The translations under genes and the position numbers were made by a program. 60,404 bases of DNA from a virus. Where the stretch lies: positions 1 through 60,404 of the IMG/VR virus record IMGVR_UViG_3300013006_001053; one strand, 5' to 3'. Below are positions 22,585 to 36,082 of this stretch, piece by piece. Numbering within the stretch: position 1 is the stretch's first letter; the number at the start of each line of letters is the position of its first letter. The notes below the pieces were generated by a model. That model saw only the letters and a program-made list of their open reading frames with translations. It did not search any database and was not told where the DNA came from.

Positions 22585-23028
22585 ATGAAAAATGAAATTT
22601 GGAAACCAGTAACACAAATTAAAAAGAAAAATCAGATTCTTAATTTTGAAGGGTATGAAGTATCAAACCTTGGTAGGGTAAGAACCTATAAACAAAAGTA
22701 TGGCAAAGTATCTAAATCTGCCACGCACTCTGGTTTGAATAGACCATTAAGATCAACTCCTATTTTTATAACAGGTCGTCCTGATATCCGAGGGTATATG
22801 CAATTATGCTTATCTGACACAAATAAGAAACGTCATAACATAAGAATACACGTAGTCGTAATACAAACTTTTCTGGGTTTTCCAGAAGAAGGTTTGATAG
22901 TTTGTCATTTCAATGATATTAAGACGGATAACCGTCTAGAGAATTTAAGGTATGGAACACATAAAGAAAACAGTCAAGACGCTGTAAGAAACAATACTGG
23001 TGTTGGAAAACCGAAACCTAAAATTTAA
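22585..23028 (+). CDS. HNH homing endonuclease with NUMOD4 domain
   Basis: 147 residues. WKPV and FEGYEVSNLGRVRTY are the NUMOD4 DNA-binding motif; IHVVVIQTFLGFPEEGLIVC followed by HFNDIKTDNRLENLRYGTHK is the HNH core (H, CH, N). Freestanding mobile nuclease without a visible intron. Own leaderless promoter. Confidence 0.88.
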   Translation: MKNEIWKPVTQIKKKNQILNFEGYEVSNLGRVRTYKQKYGKVSKSATHSGLNRPLRSTPIFITGRPDIRGYMQLCLSDTNKKRHNIRIHVVVIQTFLGFPEEGLIVCHFNDIKTDNRLENLRYGTHKENSQDAVRNNTGVGKPKPKI

Positions 23029-24236: not shown

Positions 24237-24653
24237 ATGTGCTCACCTACCATAGAACGATTCGGGGCTACCCCAGCAAATATACAATGGACCGTTGTTC
24301 GTGGAGACTATGCCTCATTTACAGTTTCATTTCTTGAAAATAACGAAGTTACAGAATTTGATACCGTTGGATGGGCTTTTGCCGCAACAGCCTATGATCC
24401 TACTACAGACGTTTTAGATGAGTTAGATGTTGAAGTTAATGGTTCGGTTATTACTGTCAGCGCCCCTGCCTCAGTTACTGAAAATTGGGGAACTAAATAT
24501 AAATCTGTAGTTGCAGAATTATCTTTTGACCTTCAAGCCGTAGTTCCAGATGGAACATCAACAATTACCTGGACCCCAGTAATTGGAACAATATGTGTTC
24601 TTGGAGATGTTTCTCCATCAACCACAAGAAACACTTTGGGTGGAGTATCTTAA
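24237..24653 (+). CDS. BppU-like tail/baseplate domain protein
   Basis: 138 residues; NIQWTVVRGDYASFTVSFLE then beta strands ending TWTPVIGTICVLGDV. Paralogue of 29561 and 8217. Likely attaches fibres to the distal tail. Leaderless start. Confidence 0.6.
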   Translation: MCSPTIERFGATPANIQWTVVRGDYASFTVSFLENNEVTEFDTVGWAFAATAYDPTTDVLDELDVEVNGSVITVSAPASVTENWGTKYKSVVAELSFDLQAVVPDGTSTITWTPVIGTICVLGDVSPSTTRNTLGGVS

Positions 24654-24741: not shown

Positions 24742-25485
24742 ATGGCTATATCTAAAAATATGGATGCTCCAAAAGCAAGATATGCCGAAGCAATAAAATC
24801 AACCAAGGTTGAAGAATCTAATAATACTGAATACATTGCCGTTCCAGGAATTCAAGGAGAACGAGGAGATACTGGTCCAGCGGGACCGCAAGGCCCAGAA
24901 GGTCCAAGGGGTGAAAGAGGTATTCCAGGCAAAGATGGCAAGGATGGTCCACAGGGTCCTCAAGGCCCTAAAGGAGATCCTGGCAGGGGCGGGGGAGAAG
25001 GGTATGAGAGTCCTTCAGGTCAATACCCAGGTTGGGCATATTATGAAAATAAAAATAAAAAAACATTATTTTTAGGACCTGATAGAGGAGATGATGGCTG
25101 GGTAAATATTTTGATGGAAGATGATGAAACTAATAATATTTTAAAGTTTCTTCCAGAAGGCTCAGTATCACTCTGGAATTCATATACTCAAAGAATTAAT
25201 TTTAAGCAATTAAAGGTTGGGGCTAGGGTAGATATTAGATATGATATTGCTTTGACTACCGACACAAATAGCACAGAAGCCTGGATCAGAACTTATATTC
25301 CAAAAGTTGAATCTCCAACTGGATACATCGGAATGCTTAAATATAAATACCCTTATGAAATGTCAGTTAACCAAACCTTATATGTTGACTTATCAAAGAT
25401 CAAATCTGAAGGCGGGATGATTCAAGCCAGGGCAGATAATGAAAGTACAATCATGCTAAAGGGTATGTACATATCAGTTTCTTAG
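24742..25485 (+). CDS. Collagen-like tail fibre protein
   Basis: 247 residues. Residues ~36-83 are a Gly-X-Y collagen repeat ([36 protein letters not shown]) with several prolines in the Y position, the site of 4-hydroxylation in animal collagens. A ~160-residue C-terminal beta domain follows, presumably a trimerising or receptor-binding head. It is followed at once by four P4H-type oxygenase genes. Confidence 0.85.
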
Positions 25486-25488
25486 TGG

Positions 25489-25494
25489 TATAAT
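25489..25494 (+). promoter_or_regulatory. Late-type extended -10
   Basis: TGGTATAAT, 5 bases before ATG 25500. Confidence 0.6.
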
Positions 25495-25499
25495 AAATT

Positions 25500-26141
25500 A
25501 TGAATAATTTTTTAGGTGGAAAAAGGTCAATAATACCTTCAGGATATTACGGAGATTCTGCAACAAACATTGTTGTTATAAAAGATTTCATTAACCAAGA
25601 AGACCTTATAAATATTCAAGATTTTTGCTCAACATTAACTAGTTTTAAAAATATACCAAATGATAATTGGGATAACCGTGTATGCGATAACTCAATTTTA
25701 AGGCAAGTGTCACCAAAAATAAATGAAATATTAAAAAAATATCAAAGTAATCATAAAAAAATAATTGAAGATTTTTTTAGTGTTCAGTTAAGAGACAATG
25801 TTCCAAGCGTTGTTATTTGGAGAGAGGGAGATGGACAAACACCTCACGCTGATAAAGAGCAAATAGATGGAAGCCCTAACCCATATCCAGAAAATGACAT
25901 TGCCTCTTTATTTTATTTAAATGATGATTACGAAGGTGGAGAAATTTACTTTCCAATGCAAAATTTACAAATAAAGCCATCTGCAGGATCAGCCGTATTT
26001 TTCCCAGGAGATAGATTTTATCAACATGGAGTTACTACCGTTAAAACTGGAAAACGTTTTACTTGTCCAGCATTTTGGAATGTAGTAGTTAACCATAAAG
26101 AAAATCAAAACAACAATACAATAAACAAAGGAGATAAATAA
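25500..26141 (+). CDS. 2OG-Fe(II) dioxygenase 1 (prolyl-4-hydroxylase-like)
   Basis: 213 residues. Double-stranded beta-helix oxygenase with Fe ligands H116-A-D118 and H176, and R186 for the 2-oxoglutarate carboxylate; the linking strand reads FYLNDDYEGGEIYFP, typical of P4Hc proteins. Expected to hydroxylate proline or another residue using O2 and 2-oxoglutarate. Leaderless start; TAATG overlap with the next oxygenase. Confidence 0.85.
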   Translation: MNNFLGGKRSIIPSGYYGDSATNIVVIKDFINQEDLINIQDFCSTLTSFKNIPNDNWDNRVCDNSILRQVSPKINEILKKYQSNHKKIIEDFFSVQLRDNVPSVVIWREGDGQTPHADKEQIDGSPNPYPENDIASLFYLNDDYEGGEIYFPMQNLQIKPSAGSAVFFPGDRFYQHGVTTVKTGKRFTCPAFWNVVVNHKENQNNNTINKGDK

Positions 26142-26806
26142 TGAGTACTAACAACGTTACAGTTGAAAATCCAGCAATGGCGATATATGTATATAAAAAC
26201 ACATTACATAAGGGTCTAAATCTTGTTGAAAGATTAGAAAAAACTATTGAAGAAAATAGTGATGGTTGGTTTAGGTGGTCTGAAGCTCAAGTTGGCGACT
26301 ATCAAACAATGAAGCATTATAGGGACTGTGTTGATTTTAAAGTAAGTAAGCAAAATTTTTTGCATAATGAAAAAGCAAACGCTTCAGATTTAAAAAATAT
26401 TTATAATGATATAGACGAAAGACTTCAGGCGTGTTTGCAACACTATTGCTCATTATATAATCTTACAATGGAATATCAAGAGGCTGTAAACTTTGTTAGA
26501 TATGGACAAGATCAACACTTTGCAGTTCATTCTGATCATGGCTTTAGCTATGTATGTACTGTTTCTTCTGTAATGTATTTAAATGATAACTATGAGGGTG
26601 GCGGACTATACTTCCCTTATCTTGACTATACATATCAGCCAGAAGAAGGAGACATTGTTTTATTTCCGTCCAACTTCTTATATTCTCACGCAGCTCTTCC
26701 AGTAGTATCAGGAACAAAATATGCTGCAGTTACCATGTTTGACTACAATGATCGTGTTCATGGTGCAAATTCTCCACTAAGACCCTCAAAAAATAACGGC
26801 ATGTAA
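26141..26806 (+). CDS. 2OG-Fe(II) dioxygenase 2 (prolyl-4-hydroxylase-like)
   Basis: 221 residues. H130-S-D132, H183 and K193 (GTKY; Lys as in animal prolyl-4-hydroxylases) with MYLNDNYEGGGLYFP. Divergent from copy 1 outside the motifs. AAAGGAG ribosome site. Confidence 0.85.
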   Translation: MSTNNVTVENPAMAIYVYKNTLHKGLNLVERLEKTIEENSDGWFRWSEAQVGDYQTMKHYRDCVDFKVSKQNFLHNEKANASDLKNIYNDIDERLQACLQHYCSLYNLTMEYQEAVNFVRYGQDQHFAVHSDHGFSYVCTVSSVMYLNDNYEGGGLYFPYLDYTYQPEEGDIVLFPSNFLYSHAALPVVSGTKYAAVTMFDYNDRVHGANSPLRPSKNNGM

Positions 26807-27525
26807 TGTACAACATTGAAGCATATGAAATAGGTTTAGGAATGGGTGCAAACCTATCTCAGTTGCCAATGAAGAGAGACTGGATGGATAAAACATTTGA
26901 TGGGCATGCGTATAGATGTTTTCCTCTATCTTTAGCTAATCAAATAGGGTGGGGATTTTCTTTTCCAGAAGATATAACCGTAATTTGGGACGGAAATGAT
27001 TCAGAGCAAGGTGGACATATTGATATTATAACTGGAAAAAAATATGTTAATGCTTCAAGAGGAACAGCAACTTTGATCTTTAATATAAATTGGTTTTTTA
27101 AAACAGACCAGGATGTTAGTTTGCTATTCTATGGTCCACCAAACTTAGTTATTGATGGTGCTACCCCTTTAACGAATATTATAAGTACAAGTTTTTGGGA
27201 TAGTCCAATCCCAGTATCTTGGAAAATTACAAAGCCAAATGTTCCGATAACGTTTAAGGCAAATGAGCCAGTGATAGCAGTAATGCCACTATCTCTTGGA
27301 AAGTTAAATGAATCTATCATAACATTAAATGATAGCCCATATGAAGTAAACTCGTATCACAAAAGATTGACAGACTATGGAAATGTTATTTTAGAAAACA
27401 ATAAGATACCTAAGTGGTCTGATTTTTATAGAAGTGCTACAGATGAGCATGGTAATAAAATTGGTGAACACGAAGTTAAAAAAATTAAACTTCATACAGA
27501 AGATAAAAGGAGTAAAAGTGCTTAA
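26806..27525 (+). CDS. DUF6065 family protein
   Basis: 239 residues. MKRDWMDKTFDGHAYRCFPL followed by SLANQIGWGFSFPED matches DUF6065, found beside oxygenases and sugar genes in aquatic phages and bacteria. Enzymatic role not known. Coupled to copy 2 by TAATG and to copy 3 by overlap. Confidence 0.75.
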   Translation: MYNIEAYEIGLGMGANLSQLPMKRDWMDKTFDGHAYRCFPLSLANQIGWGFSFPEDITVIWDGNDSEQGGHIDIITGKKYVNASRGTATLIFNINWFFKTDQDVSLLFYGPPNLVIDGATPLTNIISTSFWDSPIPVSWKITKPNVPITFKANEPVIAVMPLSLGKLNESIITLNDSPYEVNSYHKRLTDYGNVILENNKIPKWSDFYRSATDEHGNKIGEHEVKKIKLHTEDKRSKSA

Positions 27526-28039
27526 GAATGGCATAGAGTTTTATTATGAAGTTTTAGACAACCCAGAACTTCTAATAGAAGAAATAAATAAATATGAGTG
27601 GTCCAAGCCAAGTGGAGTTAATATAGAAGATAGGTCTAATTCTGTTATATATTTTAACGACAAAAATAAACATGAAAAAATTTTTAACATTGTAAAAGTT
27701 GGGATAGATAAATTTTTAGGGCAATATAGAGATATTTATTATTTACCAGAATTAACATATTTTACAATAGAGGCATTAAAGTATGAACCTAATGAAAAAT
27801 ATGTTATGCACTATGATGACGGATCTAAGCATGTATCAAATAGAGTGACAAGTTGTGTCATATACTTAAACGATAATTATGAAGGTGGAGAAATAGAGTT
27901 TGTTAATTTTGGAATTAAAGAAAAGCCAGTAAAAAATTCTATGGTCTTGTTTCCTTCTAATTATCCATATGCACACGTAGCACACAGCGTTATCTCTGGA
28001 ACTAGATATGCTATTAATTTATTCATGGAGTATAAGTAA
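27518..28039 (+). CDS. 2OG-Fe(II) dioxygenase 3 (prolyl-4-hydroxylase-like)
   Basis: 173 residues from GTG, which has AAAAGGAG 5 bases upstream; longer readings start inside the DUF6065 gene. H98-Y-D100, H153 and R163 with IYLNDNYEGGEIEFV. Shortest of the four. Confidence 0.82.
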   Translation: MLKNGIEFYYEVLDNPELLIEEINKYEWSKPSGVNIEDRSNSVIYFNDKNKHEKIFNIVKVGIDKFLGQYRDIYYLPELTYFTIEALKYEPNEKYVMHYDDGSKHVSNRVTSCVIYLNDNYEGGEIEFVNFGIKEKPVKNSMVLFPSNYPYAHVAHSVISGTRYAINLFMEYK

Positions 28040-28203
28040 TGGAAATTATAGAAGATATTGCTAAGATTATGCAATCAAAAGGCTATTGCGAAAAATCTTC
28101 ATATCAGTGGCTATGTTATGTTTTATCATCTATGGTAGACCCATCAAACTTTGATAAAGCAAAAGAAATAGCAGAAGGGCAAGAGCCACACGTGGCACAA
28201 TAA
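28039..28203 (+). CDS. Hypothetical protein, 54 aa
   Basis: MEIIEDIAKIMQSKGYCEKS, WLCYVLSSMVDPSNFDKAKE. TAATG-coupled between two oxygenase genes; could be a partner of one of them. No family. Confidence 0.6.
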   Translation: MEIIEDIAKIMQSKGYCEKSSYQWLCYVLSSMVDPSNFDKAKEIAEGQEPHVAQ

Positions 28204-28218
28204 AAAATGGAGAATAAT

Positions 28219-28821
28219 ATGAAAAAAGTTGGATCATCAAAAAACATAGTAATAAAAGAAGATTTTATTTCTCAAGACAAACTTGATTTTATCATGTCAT
28301 CAATTGATGAAACAGTTTCTTGGGGTTCAAACTCAATGGCTGGAATACCAGATAAGGTTACTAACAAGCTTTATCAAGAAAAACCAGAAGTTCACAAAAT
28401 CTTAAAAGAAGCAATAGATCAGGTACAAAAAGAGATAGAGTACCATTTTGGAAGACCTCTTGAAACAAATTCTGCAGGCATCCGTAGATGGGATACTGGA
28501 GAGTTTCAGCCACTACATGCTGATGGAGAAGATACAGAAGGACACCCAAACGAAGCATTTATAGTTGATTATGGTGCTGTCATTTATTTAAATGATGACT
28601 ATGAGGGTGGAGAAATTTACTTTCCAGACCACGGTATAGAACTTAAACCAAAAGCAGGAACGCTTGTATTTTTTCCTTCCAGCACAATGTATATTCATGG
28701 AGTAAAAGAAATTACAAAAGGTTCAAGATATACGACTCCATCATTTTGGATACCTACCAAATATAAAATATTTAGACAGCATGTTATAGAGTCAATACAA
28801 AAAAATACCCCTACTTATTAA
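28219..28821 (+). CDS. 2OG-Fe(II) dioxygenase 4 (prolyl-4-hydroxylase-like)
   Basis: 200 residues from MKKVGSSKNIVI (GGAG 7 bases upstream; an ATG four codons earlier is possible). H100-A-D102, H160 and R170 with IYLNDDYEGGEIYFP; closest to copy 1. Confidence 0.85.
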   Translation: MKKVGSSKNIVIKEDFISQDKLDFIMSSIDETVSWGSNSMAGIPDKVTNKLYQEKPEVHKILKEAIDQVQKEIEYHFGRPLETNSAGIRRWDTGEFQPLHADGEDTEGHPNEAFIVDYGAVIYLNDDYEGGEIYFPDHGIELKPKAGTLVFFPSSTMYIHGVKEITKGSRYTTPSFWIPTKYKIFRQHVIESIQKNTPTY

Positions 28822-28842: not shown

Positions 28843-29415
28843 TTAATTATATTGGCTAGGGAACTTCTTTAGCCATCTTTGATATTGGACAGGCTTAGCG
28901 TGTTTCCAAGACTTCCAATTTGTCCCACCTTCAGTCATATGAAATGCAATTTGTGCATTTTTTACGGGACTAAACAATTCAGCATTAGTATCTAGATCAA
29001 ATTTTTCTCTACGATCTGGTCCTAGATCCCCGATCATATTTATTTGGAATACCCCGTAAGAACTGTCACCAGTCTCAGCATTTCCATTAAAAGCAAAAGG
29101 TCGTCCGTTTGATTCTGCCTTGGCAACAGCCCAAGCAGTTTTTAGACCTTTTCCTGTAAAACCTACAGCCTTTAACATTTTAACTAAATCGTAATCACTC
29201 AAGCTGGCAGCATTTTCATACTTTGCCAAGATTGCCTTTTTAGTTGGCTTAGAAACCAAAAAAGCCGACTTGGGGTCGGCAGGGGCAGTCAGAGTTTTAT
29301 TAATCAACAAGTTATTGTCAGTTGTAGTTGTTAGCGCATTAGCAGAATTACTTACGGGTGCAAGTACTCCCACCAAAGATAGGATTCCAATCCAAGCCAT
29401 CTTGTCTCTTCTCAT
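28843..29415 (-). CDS. Exported lytic transglycosylase (lysin)
   Basis: 190 residues. Signal peptide (MRRDKMAWIGILSLVGVLAP, then SNSANA cleavage) followed by a C-terminal lysozyme-like domain: AVAKAESNGRPFAFNGNAET with the catalytic Glu, then SSYGVFQINMIGDLG and WKSWKHA. Resembles resuscitation/SLT-type peptidoglycan lytic transglycosylases. A Sec signal suggests export without a holin. Only leftward gene in this region. Confidence 0.8.
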   Translation of the reverse strand: MRRDKMAWIGILSLVGVLAPVSNSANALTTTTDNNLLINKTLTAPADPKSAFLVSKPTKKAILAKYENAASLSDYDLVKMLKAVGFTGKGLKTAWAVAKAESNGRPFAFNGNAETGDSSYGVFQINMIGDLGPDRREKFDLDTNAELFSPVKNAQIAFHMTEGGTNWKSWKHAKPVQYQRWLKKFPSQYN

Positions 29416-29544: not shown

Positions 29545-29550
29545 TATAAT
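29545..29550 (+). promoter_or_regulatory. Late-type extended -10
   Basis: TGGTATAAT, 10 bases before ATG 29561. Confidence 0.6.
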
Positions 29551-29560
29551 GGTAAATACT

Positions 29561-29974
29561 ATGGCAACTTACAGAGGACAGGGCGCATCTACCTATGACA
29601 TTGGTGAAAAACCACCATTTGTTAATTGGACAATCGTAAAAGGCGATACAGCATCATTTAAGGTTTATTTAACAGATGATGCAAAAGAGCCTCTAACCAT
29701 TGATGACTGGGATGTTGAGGTAGAATTTAAAAGACCTACCACTCCTGTTGAACCTCAGATAATTACAGATGTTGCAACCTTGCTTTTTACTATTACCCCA
29801 GAGCAAGATTTAGAAGATCTAGATGGTGAGTTTAAGGTTAATTTAACTGCCACCCAAACCGCACTACTAAGAACAAATGATATTTTTGATATTGAAATTC
29901 GTCTTCCACAGAATACTCTGGTTTGGACAGTTGCTCAAGGGAAGATTACCCTCCTTGAGGATGTTACAAACTAA
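29561..29974 (+). CDS. BppU-like tail/baseplate domain protein
   Basis: 137 residues from MATYRGQGASTY; an ATG overlapping the -10 is rejected. VNWTIVKGDTASFKVYLTDD and FDIEIRLPQNTLVWTVAQGK then ITLLEDV. Clear paralogue of 24237 and 8217. Confidence 0.65.
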   Translation: MATYRGQGASTYDIGEKPPFVNWTIVKGDTASFKVYLTDDAKEPLTIDDWDVEVEFKRPTTPVEPQIITDVATLLFTITPEQDLEDLDGEFKVNLTATQTALLRTNDIFDIEIRLPQNTLVWTVAQGKITLLEDVTN

Positions 29975-33050: not shown

Positions 33051-35273
33051 ATGGCAACAAGAATGCAACAGCGCAGAGGTACCGCTGCTCAGTGGACCGC
33101 TGCAGATCCAGTTTTAAATGCTGGCGAAATTGGGTTTGAAAGCGATACAGGCAAGTTTAAGATCGGTGATGGCACAAACCATTGGGACGACCTTAACTAC
33201 TTCTTAGATTCAGTTGACCAAGGTGGAAGCATTACCGACTATGTTCCATTAACACAAAAGGATGCTGCTAGTGGCGTTGCATCCCTTGATTCAAATAAGA
33301 ACGTCTATGTTCCTGGATCATCTATTATTATTGAAGGTTCAACAGATAACACAAATGAAACAACACTAACTGTTACAAATCCAACAGCAGACCGTACAAT
33401 TACTTTTCCAGACGCAACTGGAACAGTGGTCTTAGCCGACGGTAGCGGAAATGTTACAGTCTCAGGAGACTTAACTGTAAGTGGTACAACTACTACTATT
33501 AATAGCACAACGATCAATGCTACAACAGGAATTGTTTTTGAAGGTGCTACAGCAGATGCCCATGAAACCACTTTAACAATTACAGATCCAACAGCAGATA
33601 GAACTGTAACATTTCAAGATGCAACAGGAACAGTAGTTCTTAGAGATTCAACAGATACTCTAACAAACAAGTCAATTTCACTTGGTTCAAACACAGTTAC
33701 ATCAACTCTTGCTCAGTTAAATACAGCAATTAGCGATGCAGATGTAGCCACAATTGCTGGAACAGAAACACTTACAAACAAAACACTTACAAGTCCAGTA
33801 GTTTCAGGTCTTACAATTTCAGATGCTTCAATAGTAATTGAAGGCGCAACTGCAAATGAATTTGAAACAACAATTACTTTTACAGACCCAACGGCTGATA
33901 GAACAATTACATTTCCAGATTCTACAGGTACAGTAGCATTAACAACTGACATAACTGCTTCAAACATTGCAAATGATTCAATAACAGCAGTAAAACTTGC
34001 AGGAGATTCAGTTACAACTTCAAAAATTCAAAATTTAGCAGTTGAAACAGGAAAGATTAATGATCTTGCAGTCACTACAGGAAAAATTGCAGAGGGTGCA
34101 GTAACATCAGCCAAGATTGCAAATGATACAATTGTAGATGCAGACATTAACGCTTCAGCAGCAATTGCATTGTCTAAGTTAGCAACAGATCCACTTGCTC
34201 GTGCAAACCACACAGGCTCACAAACAGCCTCAACGATTTCAGATTTTAATGAAGCAGCACAAGATGCAGTAGGAGGAATTCTAGGTTCTGGTCTTACATA
34301 TACAGATGCTTCAAATACAATTACTGTAGATTCCACAGTTGTCCAATTAAGAGTTACAAACGTAACTGACACAGAAATTGGATACCTTGATGGAGTTACA
34401 TCAGCAGTTCAAACTCAAATGGATGCTAAGGCTCCACTTGCCTCACCAACATTTACTGGTACAGTATCTGCAGCAGCACTTACTCTTTCTGGAGATTTAA
34501 CCGTAAACGGAACAACTACAACAATTAATTCAACTACTCTTTCAGTAGATGATAAAAATGTTGTTCTTGGTGATGTTGCTACGCCTTCCGATGCAACAGC
34601 AGATGGTGGCGGTATAACACTAAAGGGCGCAACAGATAAAACCTTTAACTGGGTAGACGCTACAGATGCCTGGACTTCATCAGAGCACCTAAATCTCGCT
34701 TCAGGAAAGTCTCTATATTTAAACGGTACTCTATTAAAAGATGCTACAGAAACTTTAACTAATAAGACTTTAACTAGCCCAACACTCACAACCCCTGCTC
34801 TTGGAACCCCAGCATCGGGTGTGCTTACCAATACAACGGGTTTGCCTATCTCAACAGGCGTTTCAGGTTTAGGAACTGGTATTGCTACATTCCTGGCTAC
34901 TCCATCATCTGCTAATTTTACAGCAGCAATTACAGATGAAATTGGTACTGGTAACGTCATTCTTTCAGACTTGGCTACAAGTGCTCAAAATGCTTCTTAT
35001 ACATTAGTGTTAGCAGATAAAGGCAAGTTAGTAGAAATGTCCAACGCTTCTGCTAACAACCTTACAGTTCCTCTTAATTCATCAGTAGCCTACCCAGTTG
35101 GTTCACAGATCAATATTCTTCAAACTGGTGCTGGTCAAACAACCGTAGTTGCTACTGGTGGCGTGACCATCAACGCCACTCCTGGCTTAAAGTTACGAAC
35201 ACAATGGTCATCTGCAACGTTGATCAAACGTGCAACAGATACTTGGGTTTTGCTTGGTGACTTGGTAGCATAA
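33051..35273 (+). CDS. Repeat-rich tail fibre 2
   Basis: 740 residues. N-terminus [20 protein letters not shown], then [20 protein letters not shown] is the standard phage fibre attachment domain. Three [17 protein letters not shown]-type repeats, [20 protein letters not shown], and the block shared with fibre 1. C-terminus [20 protein letters not shown] ... is a common fibre tip. Confidence 0.8.
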
Positions 35274-36082
35274 TGCCAATTATTCCAGGAACCTCTGCTT
35301 CTACAACTAAAACGGTACCCTTAAGTCCAACTTCACCCGTTGCAACAAATCAGGGTTCAGCCAGATCATTTAATAATGGTCAAGTATCAGTTGCATTTAC
35401 TATACCAACATATAATGGCAAACTTCCAATTACTGAATATACAGTTACATCTAGTCCTGGTGGATTTACTGGCACAGGTGCCTCATCTCCAATATCAGTA
35501 ACTGGTTTACAATCAAACACATCATATACATATACTGTAACAGCAACTAATGCTATTGGTTCATCATCAGCATCTGCTGCTTCAGCAGGTGTTACGGCAA
35601 CAACTATACCTCAAGCACCAACTATTGGCTCTGCAACAGCGGGTAATGCAACTGCATCTGTTCCATTTACCGCAAATGCTACTGGTGGTTCTGCCGTAAC
35701 AGTGTTCACGGCAACATCATCCCCTGGATCAATAACTGGAACAAATACCGTAAGCCCAATTTCAGTTTCTGGTCTTTCAAATGGAACTGGTTATACTTTT
35801 ACAGTTACAGCAACTAATGCTAATGGAACATCAACGGCTTCTGCGGCTTCTAACTCTGTTACCCCAGTAGCACCTACAACAGCACCACCACCACCGTTCC
35901 CACCACCGTTCCCACCACCGTTCCCACCACCGTTCGCACCACCACCACCGTTCCCACCAGCATTTTCTTGTAACTGGTCTTTAGTTTCAAATACTTGTAG
36001 TGGTGGAAATAGAACTATAGTTTACTACAATCCTTGTTATGGCTACGATACTGTATACATCCCTAATGATGAAGGATGCTAA
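35273..36082 (+). CDS. Fibronectin-III / proline-rich cysteine-tailed protein
   Basis: 269 residues. Two FN3 domains (~residues 25-110 and 115-195; YTVTATNAIGSSSAS, FTVTATNANGTSTAS), a PPPF-repeat rod, and a 45-residue tail with Cys pairs (FSCNWSLVSNTCSGGNRTIV, NPCYGYD, EGC). TAATG overlap with fibre 2. Likely host-surface adhesion. Confidence 0.75.
   Translation: MPIIPGTSASTTKTVPLSPTSPVATNQGSARSFNNGQVSVAFTIPTYNGKLPITEYTVTSSPGGFTGTGASSPISVTGLQSNTSYTYTVTATNAIGSSSASAASAGVTATTIPQAPTIGSATAGNATASVPFTANATGGSAVTVFTATSSPGSITGTNTVSPISVSGLSNGTGYTFTVTATNANGTSTASAASNSVTPVAPTTAPPPPFPPPFPPPFPPPFAPPPPFPPAFSCNWSLVSNTCSGGNRTIVYYNPCYGYDTVYIPNDEGC
35884..35961 (+). repeat. 12-bp tandem repeat CCACCACCGTTC
   Basis: About six units coding PPPF; the fourth differs by one base (TTCGCA) and gives PPPFAPPP. 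Confidence 0.8.

Follow-up and report, generated by a model that had tools for sequence, protein, structure and literature searches.

Viral and cellular systems related to the oxygenase array

Phages of aquatic bacteria often carry 2-oxoglutarate (2OG)-Fe(II) oxygenases, and a survey of the Baltic Sea called the viral use of prolyl 4-hydroxylases (P4Hs) cryptic and suggested collagen in tail fibres (PMC9301287). The subject here is a 60,404 nucleotide stretch of viral DNA (IMG/VR record IMGVR_UViG_3300013006_001053, positions 1 to 60,404; hereafter the window), in which four P4H-type oxygenase genes, here called OX1 to OX4, and a gene for a DUF6065 protein follow the gene for a collagen-like tail fibre, the whole row spanning 24742-28821. 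Further downstream the window encodes a tail protein with fn3 domains and a repeat of proline and aromatic residues. Comparison with other phages showed that arrays of such oxygenases are tightly linked to the repeat protein and that there is no such linkage to collagen.

The P4H of the chlorovirus PBCV-1 (PDB 5C5T; Eriksson et al. 1999, as cited in PMC7019647 and PMC9301287) is, as OX2 is predicted to be, a virus-encoded enzyme of the P4H fold. PBCV-1 is a eukaryotic virus, however, and its P4H is discussed as a single small enzyme, with neither an array nor DUF6065. The P4Hs of algae and plants are cellular enzymes of the secretory pathway, with Ser-Pro or extensin repeats, not PPFF, as their substrates. 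They resemble the present system in that several paralogues act on Pro-rich repeats, and the structure of one of them, from Chlamydomonas, includes a (Ser-Pro)5 substrate (PDB 3GZE). T4-like cyanophages have multiple PF13640 genes (PHROG 61; 4-7 in three records), some of them beside tail-fibre genes as in S-H9-1, and their 2OG-Fe(II) oxygenases have been noted as EGLN3-like (PMC12774648), but the genes are scattered and form no array. No Pro-rich repeat was found in the 23-31 kb cyanophage regions examined. Viral P4Hs in chloroviruses and several oxygenases per cyanophage genome are thus already known, whereas the literature searched, which excluded most subscription journals, yielded no description of the array, of its DUF6065 partner or of the linkage to a Pro/aromatic repeat, and no mention of DUF6065 was found there. 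A search among isolated phages for a near match to the 38-56 kb region of the window found none.

The oxygenases of the cassette

Every open reading frame (ORF) of the row in the initial annotation (the collagen-like gene, four oxygenases, DUF6065 and a 54-aa ORF on one strand) is present, and all of them overlap or sit close together on the + strand. OX1 (213 aa, 25500-26141; PF13640 E 1e-10) and OX2 (221 aa, 26141-26806; E 1e-12) are followed by the DUF6065 protein (239 aa, 26806-27525; PF19541 E 4e-39), OX3 (27518-28039; E 2e-15), the small cassette protein ORF54 (28039-28203), which has no family match and in relatives is kept between DUF6065/OX3 and OX4, and finally OX4 itself (204 aa, 28207-28821; E 8e-10). 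For OX3 an ORF from 27434 would overlap DUF6065, and an AGGAG lies just upstream of GTG 27518; this GTG is the probable start and would give a protein of 173 aa, the same as in relatives. All four oxygenases pass the PF13640 gathering score of 27, with 39.9-57.9 bits. The earlier statement that each retains its catalytic residues agrees with our check: the HxD motif, the distal His and the Arg/Lys for 2OG are intact in OX1 (HAD 116, H176, Arg), OX2 (HSD 130, H183, Lys), OX3 (HYD 98, H153, Arg) and OX4 (HAD 104, H164, Arg), and H130, D132, H183 and K193 are invariant among the relatives of OX2. Local alignments gave pairwise identities of 34-40%, and on their sequences OX1-4 are four divergent proteins and not recent tandem copies. 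The ratio of nonsynonymous to synonymous substitution rates (dN/dS) against the related locus L006 was 0.08-0.15 for OX1-4 and 0.06 for DUF6065, and these genes are therefore under purifying selection.

The fold comparison of the oxygenases was made with OX2. With its AlphaFold2 (AF2) model (predicted local distance difference test score, pLDDT, 88.7) almost every one of the 50 best PDB rows was a prolyl hydroxylase, at Z 16.7-20.0. These included the Trichoplax PHD (Z 20.0, 193 residues, root-mean-square deviation (rmsd) 3.1), the algal P4H with its (Ser-Pro)5 substrate (Z 19.8, 172 residues, rmsd 2.4) and the P4H of PBCV-1 (Z 17.1, 161 residues, rmsd 2.9). By sequence the nearest match of OX2 is a bacterial P4H, and that of OX4 is prolyl 3-hydroxylase 1. 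The modelled fold of OX2, together with the Pro-rich repeat to which the arrays are linked, points to prolyl hydroxylation as the activity of the OX enzymes, and OX1-4 very probably constitute a phage module dedicated to the hydroxylation of protein. To that extent the initial interpretation of the locus holds; its other half, that the collagen-like fibre is the dedicated substrate, does not, as set out below.

Nor is the multi-oxygenase arrangement particular to the window: 3 to 14 copies of PF13640 per contig are usual in the phage group, the family being present in all 29 long array contigs. Many divergent phages share a recurrent gene order of two OX2-like genes, DUF6065, often a 246-aa DUF6065 paralogue, an OX1-like gene and several OX4-like genes. 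Among loci of at least 10 kb, DUF6065 was found in 40 of the 42 with OX2 and in all 50 with OX4, and in one locus a single ORF of 415 aa (L116:4769-6016) is a fusion of DUF6065 with a P4H-type oxygenase. Sulfotransferase-like genes (L109:3096-3878 and about 49 relatives) also recur close to the oxygenase arrays.

Linkage of oxygenase arrays to a proline/aromatic repeat

The repeat protein of the window, which the initial annotation did not include, has 269 aa (35273-36082, + strand), two fn3 matches (E 8.5e-12), a Pro/Phe repeat and a Cys-containing tail, and is homologous to proteins that lie beside arrays in G005, G018 and G019. Its repeat, APPPPFPPPFPPPFPPPFAPPPPFPPAF, comprises 28 residues, 19 of them Pro and 6 Phe, and is encoded on the + strand at 35882-35965, with matches to the DNA pattern used below at 35891 and 35903; the repeat peptide of the protein is APPPPFPPPFPPPFPPPF. 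Across array phages the C-terminal repeat of the fn3 protein takes the form (PPFF/PPYF/PPPF/GFFxPP)n, e.g. PPFFPPFFPPYF, PPHF, PPPF and GFFAPP. In the array-less relative G008 the fn3 protein is complete (L502:16518-17636) and has no repeat, a Gly-rich C-terminus standing in its place. This C-terminus may resemble the known Gly-rich tail adhesins, whose repeat chemistry is unlike that of the Pro/Phe repeat. A second array-less relative, G009, likewise has an fn3 protein without a repeat, but this copy (L490:1-501) is cut by the end of the fetched piece.

The linkage was tested by a reciprocal draw, in which IMG/VR contigs of at least 15 kb were chosen solely by a PPFF-coding DNA pattern and known array contigs were excluded. 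PF13640 was present in 42 of the 44 contigs so drawn, in 34 of them as three or more copies. The reversed PPFF pattern failed as a negative control because it also picks up Pro/Phe repeats, and a neutral, arbitrary 14-mer was substituted; neither PF13640 nor the repeat occurred in any of the 37 contigs drawn with it. The Fisher test of 42/44 against 0/37 gave 5e-21, a value that treats the contigs as independent although they are not.

Similar associations were seen from the side of the enzymes. Within the lineage of the collagen fibre the repeat occurred in 8/8 array contigs (6-7 copies) and in 0/9 contigs with 0-2 copies. Among 46 long contigs chosen via collagen or oxygenases, 37 had three or more oxygenases, and 33 of these had the exact repeat, as against none of the nine with fewer; three of the four array contigs without it have GFFAPP/GFFSPP variants, and the fourth entered the set via a locus starting at OX2 near the contig end. 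The repeat protein family lies at most six genes upstream of 98 arrays and directly adjoins 55, while eight arrays with enough upstream DNA are without it. By a looser protein criterion the repeat is in the locus for 68 of the 75 arrays with enough upstream DNA. Conversely, where a repeat was followed by at least 4 kb of DNA (36 cases) there was an oxygenase within 4 kb in 28 and within 1 kb in 21. The number of oxygenases also rises with the length of the repeat (Spearman 0.57, n=45), and in L009 and L024, the loci with the cassettes most similar to that of the window, the repeat protein adjoins the cassette.

On this evidence OX1-4 are probably a prolyl-hydroxylase array with the Pro/aromatic repeat of the fn3 tail protein, and not collagen, as main substrate. 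Several observations weigh against this assignment. In the window itself the repeat protein lies 6.5 kb downstream of the cassette and its repeat is only 28 aa long. In the reverse-pattern draw 31 contigs had two or more repeats, and PF13640 was missing from 8 of them, although the contigs are incomplete. Independent phylogenetic contrasts within the lineage number two that are well supported and four in all, and therefore much of the association could reflect shared ancestry or shared cargo of a tail-fibre hotspot. Nor is proline the only residue that P4H-type enzymes hydroxylate. Lastly, PBCV-1 has an active P4H, yet hydroxyproline was sought in its virion proteins and not found (PMC7019647).

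Some of the repeat proteins, among them those at L124:3590-4909, L247:5892-6860 and L024:6079-7011, contain a Hint/intein-like C-terminal stretch, with weak family matches below the cut-off; of these three, two have VHNK as their last residues. The stretch suggests self-processing of the tail protein.

Other possible substrates for the oxygenases

It is possible, if rather unlikely, that the target of the array is a different protein, either structural (fn3 domains, other tail fibres) or of the host (EF-Tu, ribosomal proteins), and that the repeat protein just happens to lie nearby. A bacterial P4H is known to bind EF-Tu and its structure (4iw3) is among those nearest to the OX2 model; moreover, arrays sit among tail-fibre genes, and a set of divergent enzymes could have more than one target. 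Alone, however, such an explanation would account neither for the presence of the repeat in array phages against its absence from array-less sisters nor for the result of the reciprocal draw.

That OX1-4 hydroxylate the adjoining collagen-like fibre, as a dedicated system for maturation of virion collagen, was the reading initially proposed and is now improbable. The fibre (247 aa, 24742-25485, + strand) has tail fibre PHROG matches and a match to PF01391 (E 8e-8; 32.3 bits against a cut-off of 27.2), with 18 Gly-X-Y triplets counted by regular expression and a C-terminal domain that is not collagen. In its favour as a substrate are the P4H fold, the fact that collagen-like peptides are substrates of bacterial and viral P4Hs, and the adjacency of the genes, which is repeated in L005, where oxygenases adjoin the fibre as they do in the window. 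An IMG/VR scan found the fibre's close relatives in 80 loci; 73 of these have no oxygenase in the stretch from the collagen gene to the lysozyme-like gene or to the locus end. Related phages with the oxygenases but no collagen-like gene, an outcome that the initial reading had itself named as its refutation, also occur: L009, L011, L012 and L013 have the oxygenase cassette as in the window, with a DUF6065 protein 78% identical to that of the window, in a locus without collagen, and the whole contigs of L009, L013 and L012 (G018, G033 and G038; 86, 63 and 53 kb) gave no match to PF01391. A collagen match was likewise sought in the 29 long array contigs, and 22 had none.

On the best tree of the collagen genes the presence of the array changes at least five times, two of the changes being forced by well-supported branches, and the collagen genes of L221 and L223 are identical, yet only one of the pair has an array. 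Nor are prolines enriched with arrays. The triple-helical stretch of the window fibre has seven prolines in the X position and only two in the Y position, and the means for X and Y were 5.4 and 1.2 in array-bearing relatives against 6.0 and 2.5 in array-less ones. On the gene-content comparison, with 73 of the 80 relatives lacking an oxygenase, cassettes lacking collagen and identical collagens differing in their arrays, collagen was rejected as the dedicated substrate, though it could still be a secondary one. Because neither gene content nor the collagen tree nor the proline counts show linkage to the array, the collagen is, judging by these comparisons, a conserved fibre of the lineage whose position next to the insertion site is incidental and which has no specific link to the oxygenases.

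DUF6065

The DUF6065 protein of the window matches PF19541 with 135 bits against a cut-off of 26.6. Its AF2 model (pLDDT 93.9) predicts a dUTPase-like (beta-clip) fold; the PDB rows listed are dUTPases or dCTP deaminase, and the alignment with dUTPases has Z 10.7 over 122 residues with an rmsd of 5.5. Comparison of the DUF6065 profile with PDB sequences gave weak matches only, including a viral dUTPase at E 0.08. Although the fold is shared with dUTPase-like proteins, almost none of the DUF6065 proteins examined has the canonical motifs: a search by regular expression of 43 sequences found motif IV in none, V in none, II in one and a III-like motif in five, and none in the window protein. Since motifs II-V are missing there and in almost all of its relatives, DUF6065 was rejected as an active dUTPase.

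Profile comparison relates DUF6065 to the 246-aa paralogue with 96% probability. A GIIDxD motif is kept in 8/8 sequences of the paralogue, and its homologues occur in HF2-like haloarchaeal viruses, with thymidylate synthase as a neighbour in HSTV-2. Two queries of 50,697 phage records for DUF6065 gave no match. The family was found in two chromosomes of alphaproteobacterial metagenome-assembled genomes (L254 and L255), where it is solitary among housekeeping genes with no oxygenases nearby, and in neither did this setting provide a clue to function.

A hypermodification pathway for nucleotides, DNA bases or a small molecule, formed by the oxygenases and the dUTPase-fold protein, would agree with the predicted fold of DUF6065, with the paralogue beside thymidylate synthase in a haloarchaeal virus and with weak matches of the oxygenases to Tet_JBP. 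It is nevertheless highly improbable, since DUF6065 is without dUTPase motifs, the OX2 model resembles prolyl hydroxylases that act on protein, the array sits in the region of the tail-fibre genes, and the Tet_JBP matches fall short of the curated cut-off.

The insertion site

The segment 25486-28842 is an insertion hotspot. Its right border is a lysozyme-like (SLT_3) protein gene on the - strand (28843-29415; PF18896 E 5e-17), and the site between the collagen-like and lysozyme-like genes is recognised as an insertion site because the gap is only 44-68 bp in 25 of the 70 bounded relatives; the other relatives have 2.3-7.5 kb of varying cargo. That the cassette is itself variable cargo without fixed function would fit this empty site and the different cargo elsewhere, but is scarcely credible given the dN/dS values, the conserved order of the cassette and the intact catalytic residues. 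A PHROG 1084 protein with no assigned function occurs twice, once on each side of the collagen/oxygenase segment (24237-24653 and 29549-29974), and an ORF at 22585-23028 has, by eye, a likeness to HNH/NUMOD4-type homing endonucleases.

Proposed mechanism and implications

For the substrate, the chemistry on the repeat, its purpose, the role of DUF6065 and the presence of the product in the virion we infer the following scheme. The enzymes would use 2OG, O2 and Fe(II) to hydroxylate the prolines of the PPFF/PPPF-type repeat before assembly, each perhaps preferring its own position, register or ring position in the repeat. Hydroxyproline might make the very hydrophobic repeat a soluble, stiff, polyproline-II-like fibre tip; alternatively, the hydroxyprolines may be sites for later decoration. 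DUF6065 could be an adaptor or scaffold that presents the substrate. In its full form, an undescribed and widespread phage system in which 3-14 divergent prolyl hydroxylases and a DUF6065 scaffold make hydroxyproline-rich tips of fn3 tail fibres, the proposal is put forward tentatively.

The linkage names a concrete candidate substrate for the 2OG-Fe(II) oxygenases of aquatic phages, and for DUF6065 there is now a fold prediction as well as a genomic setting. If the proposal is true, these would be the first class of hydroxyproline-rich structural proteins known from bacterial viruses, and O2-dependent prolyl hydroxylation would mature virion proteins of bacterial viruses much as it does the cell-wall proteins of plants, with consequences for infection at low oxygen or iron.

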